Of a stretch of 64,000 nucleotides of DNA, positions 9,769-14,477 are shown piece after piece. A program made the translations under genes and the position numbers. Positions within the stretch are counted from its first letter, which is position 1; each line of letters begins with the position of its first letter. The notes below the pieces were generated by a model. That model saw only the letters and a program-made list of their open reading frames with translations, was not told where the DNA came from and did no database searches. This DNA comes from an uncultured Armatimonadota bacterium (lineage in GTDB: Bacteria; Armatimonadota; Armatimonadia; Armatimonadales; Armatimonadaceae). The stretch is from the NCBI GenBank assembly GCA_903910385.1, contig CAIVZM010000019.1, positions 1 to 64,000 of the forward strand, in the 5' to 3' direction.

Positions 9769-12700
9769 ATGGCTGACGCATCTACATTTGATAAGATTCG
9801 TATTGGCATCGCGTCGCCGGACCAGATTCGTACCTGGTCGTATGGCGAAGTAAAGAAGCCGGAAACGATTAACTACCGGACATTTAAACCGGAACGGGAT
9901 GGTCTCTTCTGTGAAAAGATTTTCGGACCTACCAAAGACTGGGAATGCCACTGCGGGCGTTACAAAAAGGTAAAGTTCAAAGGCATCATCTGCGATCGTT
10001 GCGGCGTCGAAGTAACGCGGTCTAAAGTGCGACGTGAGCGGATGGGGCATATCGAACTTGCCTCTCCCGTTTGTCACATCTGGTATCTCAAGGGCGTTCC
10101 CTCGCCGCTTGCGCTGATACTGGATATGACGCCACGTCCTCTGGAGAAAGTGCTTTACTTCGCCTCCTACATTGTCACACACGTGGACAAAGGACGGACG
10201 ATGGCGGGGCTCGATCAATTCCGGGATGCCGTCGAGCAGGAAATCGCATCTCTGGAAGATGAGCGGGATGACATCATTCGTGAGTATCGCGACGATTTCG
10301 CCCGTGAGACCGCTCTGGGGCGTATCGTTGAAATCGGGGAGACAGAAACCGGCGAAGATGACGACGCGGAAGCGGCGGTTGTTCTGGACCCGGATGCGGA
10401 ACCTGAGCGCGTACCTTATACCGAAGAAGAAATCTTCGGTCGTCAGCGGCAGTTAGAAGATCGCATCAAGCAGGAAGAGAAGGACGCGACCGAACGCGCC
10501 GAAGAACTGCGTGAAGCGCTCAAGTTGTTGCAAACGCTGGAAAAGCGAATGCTTATCAACGAAGACCAGTGGCGTGCAATCGAGCGTCTGTTGCAAGTGC
10601 TCAGTGATCGCGTTTCGCCGGAACTCTATGACGGTATCAACGATGCTTCGTCCACTTCTATCGTTCGCGCTGGATTGGGCGGAGCGGCGATCAAAGAATT
10701 GCTGATGGAAGTAGACCTCGAATCCCTGCAACGGCAGTTGCGCAAAGATGTTGAGGAAACGCAGGGGCCACGCCGTCTCCGCGCCATCAAGCGTATCGAA
10801 GTTGTCAATGCGTTCCTGGAAAGCAAGGCGCGTCCGGAATGGATGATTCTGGATGCGGTGCCGGTCATTTCGCCGGAACTGCGCCCGATGGTGCAGTTGG
10901 ACGGTGGGCGCTTCGCGACATCTGACCTCAACGATTTGTATCGGCGTATCATCAACCGAAACAACCGTCTGAAGAAGATTACGGAGATTCGCGCCCCCGA
11001 AAGCATCGTCAACCATGAAAAACGATTGCTTCAGGAAGCGGTGGACGCCCTGATCGATAACGGACGTCGGACTCGACCGGTCACCGGCTCGAATGGTCGC
11101 CCGCTGAAGTCGCTTTCCGACATGCTCAAGGGCAAGGAAGGTCGCTTCCGCAAGAACCTGCTGGGCAAGCGTGTCGACTACTCCGGTCGGTCGGTCATCG
11201 TCGTCGGTCCGGACTTGCGATTGCATGAATGCGGTCTGCCGAAGGAGATGGCGCTGGAACTCTTCAAGCCCTTCGTCATGAAGACGCTGGTCGAGCGACA
11301 GTTTACGTCCAACATCAAAACGGCGAAGCGTATGATCGACAAGATGCGCCCGGAAGTGTGGGATGCGCTCGAAGAAGTGATCAAGGAACATCCGGTTCTT
11401 CTGAACCGGGCGCCAACCCTGCACCGACTCGGCATTCAGGCGTTCGAACCGAAACTGGTGGATGGTAAAGCGATCCAACTGCACCCACTCGTCTGTAAGG
11501 CGTTCAACGCCGACTTCGACGGTGACCAGATGGCGGTGCATATTCCGTTGTCGGCGACGGCTCAGGCGGAAGCTCGCATTCTGATGCTTTCGACGCATAA
11601 CCTGTTCTCACCAGCGGATGGTTCGCCAATCGTTTCGCCGCAACAGGACATCGTTCTGGGAAACTACTTCCTGACGATGGAAAAGAAAACGTTACGTCTG
11701 GATCGTGACTTCAAGGGGGCGACAGGAACCGAACTGGCGGATCAACTGGTTGGTTCGAAAGTTCTCGTTGATATCCTGCATCCGGAAACGTCAGAAGTGA
11801 TCGTCGCTAAGGGCGTCCGAATCTCTCCGGATGCGGCGATGGCGATTGCGGCGAACGCGGTAGCGATTCGTGATGTCGCTATTGTTCGGCATAAGCCGTT
11901 CGCCTCGCCGGAAGATGCCTTGATGGCGTATGACCGGGGGCTTCTGGACTTACATGACTATATCGAAGTCCGTCTTCCTGTTTACGGTACAACGGATCGT
12001 GAACTGGTGACGATCACGGCGGGACGTCTGGTGTTCAACCATGAGGTCGTGCCGGAACCGCTTCGTTATGTCAACAAGACGATGGAGAAGAACTCGCTCA
12101 TCAAGCTCATTTCCGAGGCGCATGACGCTGTCGGCGATGAAGGAACGATCATTCTTCTGGACGCGATCAAGTCTACGGGTTTCAAATGGGCTTGTAAGGC
12201 GGGGATCACGTTCGCTCTGACGGACATGAAATCGCCGCCGTCCCGCGCCGCTATTCTGAAGCAGACGGAAGACGATGTCAACAAGGTCAGCCAGAACTTC
12301 CGACGTGGCATGTATTCGCCGGGTGAGAAGAAACAGCGCGTCATCGAATTGTGGACGGGGGCTTCCGCCAAGATTGCCGATGAGATTATCGGCAATATTG
12401 AGCAGTTCAACCCGATCAACATCATCACGGACTCCAAAGCCCGAGGCTCCAAAAAGCAGCTGGCGCAGTTGTCCGGTATGCGCGGTCTGATGTCCGACCC
12501 ATTCGGGAACATTATTGACTCTCTGCCAGTGAAGTCGAACTTCCATGAAGGTCTGTCCGTTCTGGAATACTTCGTCACCACGCACGGAGCGCGAAAGGGT
12601 CTGGCGGATACCGCCCTTCGTACTGCGGACGCCGGATACCTTACCCGTCGTCTGGTAGACGTTGCACAGGATGTCATTGTTCGCGAAATCGACTGTGGCA

Positions 12701-14313
12701 CAGAGCAGGGAATTTTCGTCTCCGAACTCCGTGAAGGAAATGACACGCTCGAATCGCTCGGTGACCGCATCAAGGGACGAACGGCGCTGGAGGAAATCCT
12801 GCACCCGGAAACCAGCGAGATCATCGTCGGTAAGGGACAACCCATCAGTGATGAGAAGGCGATTGAAGTGCAGATGGCAGGCGTCAAGCGTGTCGGTCTG
12901 CGTTCCGTCCTGACCTGTGAATCGCGTCAGGGAGTCTGCTCTACCTGTTATGGTCGTGATCTTGCAACCGGCAAACCGGTGGAAATCGGCGTGGCGGTAG
13001 GTATTATCGCAGCGCAGTCCATCGGCGAACCCGGAACGCAGTTGACCATGCGAACGTTCCACACCGGCGGTATCGCCTCGGCGAACCAGTTGACGGGCGT
13101 TGCGAACGTCCGCCGACAACGCGCTCAGAGCCTCGGAATCCTGTATGAAGATCAGGAGAAGGGGCGAATCTCCCTCGGTAGCGAGGAAGGTCATGAGCGA
13201 GAGCGTCAGCGACAGGTTCAGCAGTTGCTCAAGGTTGCGGAAGAGCAGGTCGGCGGTCTTCTGCGCGTCGTCGAACTCTTTGAGGCCCGGAAGCCCAAGG
13301 GGCAGGCGATTGTCACCGAGTTCGGCGGACTGGTAGCGGACATTACGATGCAGGGGCTTCGTAAGGTCGTTATCCACTCGCCGGTCAAGGTGTCCGAAGA
13401 CGCCAAGAGCATTCGTGAGCAAGTGGCGGCGGAATCCATTTATCTGCCCGGCGCAGATGGCGGCGAAGCGGCGACTCCGATTGTACCTGCTGGAGAAAAC
13501 ATTCCGGAACGTATCGCCAAGAAGATCGCGGCGGCGGGCATTGAGTATGTCAAAGTCCGTAAGGAAAAGGTTGTCCCGTACCGTGGCGAACTGGAAGTCA
13601 AGCCGGGCGATGAGGTAGAACCGGGTCACCGACTTACTGCTGGTCCGCTGGATCCGCAGAGCGTTCTGGAACTGCAGGGCGTTCGTGGCGTGCAGGAATA
13701 CATGGTCAAGGAAGTGCAAAGCGTCTACAAACAACAGGGCGTAGATATCAACGACAAGCACATCGAGGTCATTATTCGGCAGATGCTCCGTCGCCGAAAG
13801 GTTGCGGAACCGGGCGATTGCCAGTTCCTGCCGGGTCAACAGTTAGACCGCTTCGAGATTGAGGATGCGAACCGCGAAGTGGAATCGCGCCCGACTCCCG
13901 GACGTCCGGCGACTTCTATGCCGGTGCTTCTGGGAATCACCGAAGCGTCTCTGGCTACCGACTCGTTCCTGTCGGCGGCATCGTTCCAGAAGACGACTCG
14001 TGTCCTGACGGAAGCGGCAGTGCGCGGTAAGAAGGACTACCTGGTCGGGTTGAAGGAGAACGTCATTATTGGACGCCTTATTCCCGCCGGAACCGGTCTG
14101 GCGCAGTACCGTGCTCTGGATGTCGTCTCTACCGATGGACGGAAACTGGAACCGGAGCGCCCGTCGCGCCGCATGCTCGATATCGAGCGTCTGGACGACG
14201 AGTTAGCGGAACTGGACTCCCTGAAGGCGGCGGCGGCGACCATGCTGGGCGCCGAATCCCCCGACCCGGAGGAATCCACGTCTCCCAGCCCGCTCGAACT
14301 CCTCGGTGGCTAA
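9769..14313 (+). CDS. rpoC: DNA-directed RNA polymerase subunit beta'
   Basis: 1514 residues; ATG at 9769 with AGGAAGGTGAG upstream. RpoC carries the catalytic Mg2+ site. Seen: N-terminal zinc ribbon (C60, C62, C75, C78), the rudder/lid region with [18 protein letters not shown], the catalytic NADFDGDQ (Asp582, Asp584, Asp586), bridge-helix/trigger-loop regions including [11 protein letters not shown], and the second zinc site ([13 protein letters not shown]). A segment [12 protein letters not shown] near 668-679 and a near-copy [12 protein letters not shown] near 1008-1019 suggest a duplicated sandwich-barrel module. The acidic insert around 190-250 ([11 protein letters not shown]) is probably surface exposed. 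It ends 130 bp before an intrinsic terminator. Confidence 0.99.
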
Positions 14314-14331
14314 ACAGGTAGGCTCGGCTAA

Positions 14332-14433
14332 GAGCGCCTAACAAAACCTTTGTTACGAGGCGCTAAAGAGCCTCGCCCAGAAGCTTCGCCAACCGTCCTC
14401 TGGACGGAATAAAGGATGTTTTGTTAGGTGCTC
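14332..14433. mobile_element. MITE-like element, 102 bp, 16-bp TIRs, TAA target duplication
   Basis: Left terminus GAGCGCCTAACAAAAC (14332-14347) and right terminus GTTTTGTTAGGTGCTC (14418-14433) are inverted repeats with one mismatch. TAA flanks both ends (14329-14331 and 14434-14436), as expected of a 3-bp target-site duplication. Internal hairpins GAGGC...GCCTC (14357-14374) and CCGTCC-TCT-GGACGG (14393-14407) leave no coding capacity. GAG termini with TNA duplications recall the IS1031-type branch of the IS5 family, so a matching transposase is expected elsewhere in the genome. It lies between the rpoC stop and the rpoC terminator. Alternatively it could be a structured 3' UTR, but the duplication favours insertion. 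Confidence 0.65.
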
Positions 14434-14442
14434 TAAAGCAAA

Positions 14443-14477
14443 AAACGCCGGACGGCTTAGGCCGTCCGGCGTTTCTT
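14443..14477 (+). terminator. rpoBC intrinsic terminator
   Basis: A perfect 14-bp stem (14443-14456 with 14461-14474, core ACGCCGGACGGC) with a TTAG loop is followed by TTTCTTT. This is a strong Rho-independent terminator 130 bp after the rpoC stop codon. Confidence 0.92.

Follow-up and report, generated by a model that had tools for sequence, protein, structure and literature searches.

A probable IS5-family MITE with a REP-like interior unit in the rpoC 3' untranslated region of an uncultured Armatimonadota bacterium

REPtrons and TIRtrons have been described as HUH tyrosine transposase genes with palindromic repeats on either side (Di Nocera 2013, PMC3733652; Quentin 2018, PMC6006769). The TIRtrons (Di Nocera 2013, PMC3733652) have later been placed mostly in subclass 2.1 of these transposases (Quentin 2018, PMC6006769). 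On the same list, TnpAY1 subclass 1.2, which displays the motifs DH[IV]H, WQ and Y---Q--HH, appears as a subclass without REP-like repeats (Quentin 2018, PMC6006769).

Here, a 102-bp element at the 3' end of rpoC was analyzed within a 64-kb window, the whole stretch of DNA under study. The genome from which the window originates (G000) is a 4.47-Mb assembly of 84 contigs and is ~95% complete. Among its relatives, G006, from the same family, matches the Armatimonadaceae bin YX3bin16, and G018, from the same order, matches a Capsulimonas bin. The element is very likely a non-autonomous IS5-family DDE MITE, the interior of which is a REP-like unit of the kind flanking an HUH transposase gene on contig C48 of the same genome. 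For a MITE, a transposase with matching ends in the same genome is usual, although not required.

The element between rpoC and its terminator

The initial annotation had described 16-bp terminal inverted repeats (TIRs) with one mismatch and a TAA on either side, and these features as well as their coordinates are borne out by the sequence (Table 1). The arms GAGCGCCTAACAAAAC and GTTTTGTTAGGTGCTC enclose positions 14332-14433, called the C19 copy below, and their pairing reaches one A/T pair further out, resulting in 17 nt. When the window was scanned for inverted arms of 16 nt, 60-90 nt apart and with no more than a single mismatch, this structure turned out to be the only one. It was found there in two registers, of which only the TAA/TAA-flanked one starts with GAG. 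Hairpin folding and a lack of coding capacity had also been claimed. Indeed, the fold of the 102 nt differs clearly from that of shuffled sequences (z = -5.8, 0/200, DNA parameters) and no gene-like ORF is present inside the element; a 95-aa ORF on the minus strand only runs across it. An Rfam search with the element gave sub-threshold matches only and no family at gathering score, and a promoter-like site was not detected.

Table 1. Positions of the element, its parts and the neighboring rpoC features in the window.
Feature	Position	Strand	Evidence
rpoC, host gene for the RNA polymerase beta' subunit, preceding the element	9769..14313	+	Pfam RNA_pol_Rpb1 domains 1-5
Left TAA copy of the target-site duplication	14329..14331	.	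Sequence; like the TNA duplications around ISs and MITEs with the GAGCGCCTAACAAAAC TIR
Left TIR, GAGCGCCTAACAAAAC	14332..14347	+	16/16 to one of the two TIRs of the Microvirga IS5-family IS and to the Massilia and G022 MITE TIRs
Left subterminal stretch, CTTTGTTA (C28: CCTTGTAA), linking TIR and hairpin unit	14348..14355	+	Copy alignment
Hairpin A of the REP-like unit, CGAGGCGCTAAAGAGCCTCG	14356..14375	+	7 mismatch-free genome places; compensatory changes
Hairpin B of the REP-like unit, weak here, GAAGCTTCGCC	14380..14390	+	Alignments A1/A2
Hairpin C of the REP-like unit, CCGTCCTCTGGACGG	14393..14407	+	Alignments A1/A2, compensatory changes
AAGGAT tail of the unit, abutting the right TIR	14412..14417	+	Common to most own-genome units and G022 units
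Right TIR, GAGCACCTAACAAAAC on the minus strand	14418..14433	-	Sequence
Right TAA copy of the target-site duplication	14434..14436	.	Sequence
Intrinsic terminator ending the rpoC transcript, not part of the element	14443..14474	+	14 pairs, T-rich tail

The position between rpoC, the stop codon of which occupies 14311-14313, and the intrinsic terminator downstream of the element is likewise as first reported. Stop codon and terminator are 129 nt apart. If 105 nt are subtracted, that is the 102 bp and one TAA, 24 nt remain. For comparison, 29 other rpoC loci were inspected, and in the 21 loci with a clear nearby terminator this terminator starts 3-44 nt past the rpoC stop. Among the remaining loci, six have no terminator call and two are doubtful (L055, weak; L061, at 183 nt, an apparent tRNA gene). 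The 24 nt without the element therefore lie within the range of the relatives, as predicted by an insertion into a short spacer between stop and terminator. Even the nearest genome shares only ~74% identity over the end of RpoC; the spacing to the terminator agrees with an insertion.

Within the rpoC transcript, the TIR arms are predicted to pair almost fully, forming a hairpin of ~20 pairs directly ahead of the intact terminator. The C19 element in the rpoC mRNA would most likely be neutral or a mild stabilizer of the mRNA end. Little effect on the transcript would be expected, possibly a slower 3' decay.

The terminal inverted repeats in other genomes and in the own genome

The TIR of the C19 element is found on complete IS5-family ISs of 0.85-0.9 kb with TNA duplications in Microvirga, Methylorubrum, Sphaerotilus and a prophage contig. 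The IS of Microvirga terrae pR24_1, the gene of which (HPT29_RS25830) is annotated as 'IS5 family transposase', carries TIRs matching at 16/16 and 15/16 positions and is flanked by TAA/TAA. Complete ISs bounded by the same ends are present in Methylorubrum extorquens AM1 and Sphaerotilus sulfidivorans, and a further complete one, flanked by TTA/TTA, lies on the prophage contig (IMG/VR contig L310). Two reading frames, one with PF13340 and one with PF01609, encode the Microvirga transposase, and the scores of both exceed the NF033580 ('IS5 family transposase') cut-off; the protein of the L310 IS belongs to PF13340. The closest transposases to that of Microvirga within the phylum show 72% (G052), 68% (G003, a member of the own family) and 59% identity (G014) over the N-terminal part. 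The ends of these three ISs are close variants of the same type as the C19 TIR, and the flanks read TAA/TAA in G052 and G003 and TTA/TAA, hence unmatched, in G014.

Furthermore, the same TIR with TAA/TAA flanks bounds short MITEs. These were found in G022, a genome of another Armatimonadota family (L040:1504-1601, 98 bp, exact TIR, unrelated interior), on a plasmid of Massilia litorea (L312:1508-1608, NZ_CP062942.1, 101 bp, perfect GAGCGCCTAACAAAAC ends) and in Aureimonas (L316:1505-1666, 162 bp). In their size of 98-162 bp, their TIR and their flanks they resemble the C19 element, and those of Massilia and G022 also fold on themselves like it. In contrast, the interiors of these elements are mutually unrelated. 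The Microvirga-type ISs have the TIR and the TAA duplication in common with the C19 element, whereas the latter is without a transposase gene and has nothing visible in common with them inside the TIRs, where no subterminal likeness to the ISs was seen. Identical TIRs and TNA duplications on complete IS5-family ISs and on other short MITEs support the IS5-family MITE that had been proposed for this site. The more specific label 'IS1031-like' fares less well: the TNA duplication is present, but the partner transposases are of the two-frame NF033580 type, PF13340 followed by DDE, and this subgroup is not established.

Among 291 genomes of the phylum, the paired-TIR pattern occurs in two, that is in G022 and as the window element, with none for the reversed-pattern control. 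The exact paired pattern did not bound any MITE in viral contigs, and phage records gave no informative match. L309 and L029 (G025:C9) each have a single TIR match that lacks a partner end and falls in what appears to be a coding region; these were taken as chance. As a separate observation, the interior of the Massilia MITE has ~80% similarity to a repeat present in Neisseria gonorrhoeae records, which resembles the Correia/NEMIS element; possibly, a Correia-type core is present there under different ends.

A search for copies of the element and for an IS with the same ends in the own genome, as the initial annotation had recommended, was successful for the former only. Contig C28 carries a second full copy with both TIRs and 87% identity and C74 a decayed copy, while interior-only partial matches lie on C41 and C48. 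Matching 3-bp flanks, i.e., a TNA duplication, are absent at C28 and C74. Searches with the TIR pattern, PF01609 and PF13340 did not reveal an IS bounded by the TIR of the element in the ~95%-complete assembly. PF13340 is present at four places (C21, C75, C65 and C40), none of which has the ends of the element, and three of which bear a TIR of the GTGTTATGAAC type. The latter are resident IS5-like DDE elements (L280, L281 and L282 on C75, C21 and C65, respectively), with duplications of TTA at C75 and TAA at C21. They were rejected as parents of the C19 element, being distant and having ends with little beyond AGAGCG in common with it. Genome-wide, TIR matches with up to three mismatches are not commoner than matches to the reversed pattern. 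One place on contig C23 (L279, G000:C23:266-287, GGATGTTTTGTCCGGCGCTC) may be a lone right end of the composite MITE, combining 14/16 TIR positions with GGAT, a weak match (E = 2.8).

The interior unit and the HUH transposase gene

The interior does not derive from an IS: rather than a shortened transposase gene, it is a REP-like unit with three hairpins, such as those flanking the HUH gene on C48. This unit (14356-14417) consists of the hairpins CGAGGCGCTAAAGAGCCTCG, GGC..GCC and CCGTCC..GGACGG, followed by the AAGGAT tail. The pattern of hairpin A occurs without mismatch at exactly seven places of the genome, in five loci. On C48, a gene of 154 aa is enclosed by two units that form an inverted repeat of 131 nt. 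Contig C41 (L020:3987-4130; G000:C41:14486-14629) displays two facing units that enclose no gene and form a REPIN-like inverted dimer, and facing units are also found in G022, G006, G005 and G014. A compound of several diverged units, in which one hairpin A is stretched to ~15 pairs, lies on C46 (L273:1133-1356; G000:C46:21632-21855).

An alignment of 44 unit copies from the own genome and relatives showed pairing in 95% of the base-pair cells and changes on both sides in 13 of 16 pairs. All pairing measures were above those of all shuffles and slid controls; the alignment had been fitted to the structure, so that these numbers lean toward it. Of 101 genomes searched with a model of the unit, 24 contain it, a single genome yielding as many as 48 matches at the chosen cut-off, and the unit is dispersed across the Armatimonadota, often as inverted pairs. 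A relative of the C48 transposase is present in 22 of the 24 unit-bearing genomes versus 61 of 201 genomes overall (binomial p ~6e-10, ignoring relatedness). The TIR and the unit cannot be separated quite cleanly, since the unit tails of the left C48 unit (C48L, AAGGATGTTTTATAGGTGC) and of C46 (AGGCGCTC) resemble the right TIR.

The C48 gene (P0001; L021:3670-4299, corresponding to G000:C48:66669-67298, gene plus repeats) is of the IS200/IS605 HUH type, scoring 81 bits with PF01797 and 68 bits with NF033573, the cut-off of which is 55. Its motifs DHVH, KWQ and YVKNQKRHH are those of TnpAY1 subclass 1.2. Among loci related to P0001, the Y---Q--HH motif is present in 104 of 110. Inverted repeats counted at 40 bits or more flank 59 of 108 such loci, a number which includes a few same places reached via two collections, and these loci belong to many phyla. 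Controls gave 0/106 when the flanks of different loci were paired and 0/86 when the windows were shifted 700 bp outwards.

The C48-type unit is similar to the repeats of REPtrons and TIRtrons in two respects: its copies flank an HUH gene in opposite orientations, and it is scattered through the genome both singly and as inverted dimers. Unlike in REPtrons, the gene carries subclass 1.2 motifs, and the unit has three hairpins and no GTAG/GTGG foot; this tetranucleotide is absent from the hairpin foot in the aligned own-genome units. To the extent of the literature searchable here, an association of subclass 1.2 with repeats is new.

Origin and meaning of the element

Because the TIR equals that of IS5-family ISs and a TNA duplication is present at the C19 site, movement by an IS5 transposase in trans is suggested. 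Such a transposase would have cut at the GAG ends, and the element would have been inserted at a TNA site in the ~24-nt spacer between rpoC stop and terminator. The site prior to insertion would read GGCTAAAGC with one TAA. The C19 and C28 copies have both TIR-unit junctions in common, so that the composite TIR-unit-TIR arose once and later moved as a whole, presumably spreading as a DDE MITE. Against an IS5-type MITE stand the missing TNA duplications at C28 and C74 and the absence of an IS with these ends from the own assembly, and also the lack of likeness to the ISs beyond the TIR and the unit tails on C48 and C46 that resemble the right TIR. The partner IS may since have been lost, or may reside in the unassembled part of the genome.

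A quite different origin would apply if the C48 HUH (Y1) transposase itself moved the element as a single-stranded REP/PATE-like palindrome. The TIRs would then be a unit tail and its inverted copy, and the TAA/TAA flanks would be due to chance. Indeed, the interior unit and a part of the tail share homology with the repeats on both sides of the C48 tnpA, the hairpins of the unit covary, and HUH elements make no target duplication, as is the case at C28 and C74. However, in other genomes and phyla IS5-family ISs, as well as MITEs whose interiors are unrelated, carry the exact 16-nt TIR together with TNA duplications, and an HUH-derived tail would not be expected there. This largely refutes a mobilization by the HUH transposase, which we regard as quite unlikely. 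An origin from HUH activity only, as deduced from the common interior, was dropped for the same reason, namely the exact TIR and TAA around the different interior in G022 and on IS5-family ISs. Far more remote is a conserved element of the rpoC 3' UTR, such as an RNA processing or attenuation signal. Although the position in the 3' UTR and the strong fold would fit, the element is absent from the rpoC 3' ends of all relatives tested, including five of the same family, copies lie elsewhere in the genome and no Rfam family is reached at gathering score. The initial annotation had named a lack of further copies or of a matching IS together with conservation at orthologous rpoC ends as the signs of such a UTR element; instead, the copy on C28 was found and the orthologous sites are without the structure, and the UTR element was rejected.

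A true IS5-type MITE could also have been kept for a function at rpoC, for example to shield the 3' end of the polymerase mRNA from exonucleases. The near-full pairing of the TIRs, which would place a long hairpin in the transcript just ahead of the terminator, is in line with this idea. Nevertheless, other copies are decaying and the relatives manage without the element, so that a retained function appears unlikely. The IS5-family MITE at rpoC is probably a relic that is carried along passively in the 3' UTR.

As a MITE, the C19 element is ordinary. It is located in the 3' UTR of an essential operon, where an insertion between stop and terminator is tolerated. Its core is of wider interest: a DDE MITE, the whole core of which is the repeat unit of an HUH, i.e., single-strand, transposase, would imply that small palindromes can pass between unrelated mobile systems. 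That a DDE MITE captured the repeat unit of an HUH transposase and spread it as cargo, and that in addition subclass 1.2 HUH genes are widely REPtron-like with multi-hairpin inverted repeats, is a joint proposal to which we assign about even chances. If true, two unrelated transposition systems have one palindromic unit in common. Furthermore, the core leads to repeats tied to subclass 1.2 HUH genes in many phyla, which makes it directly testable whether palindromic DNA is processed by subclass 1.2 enzymes.
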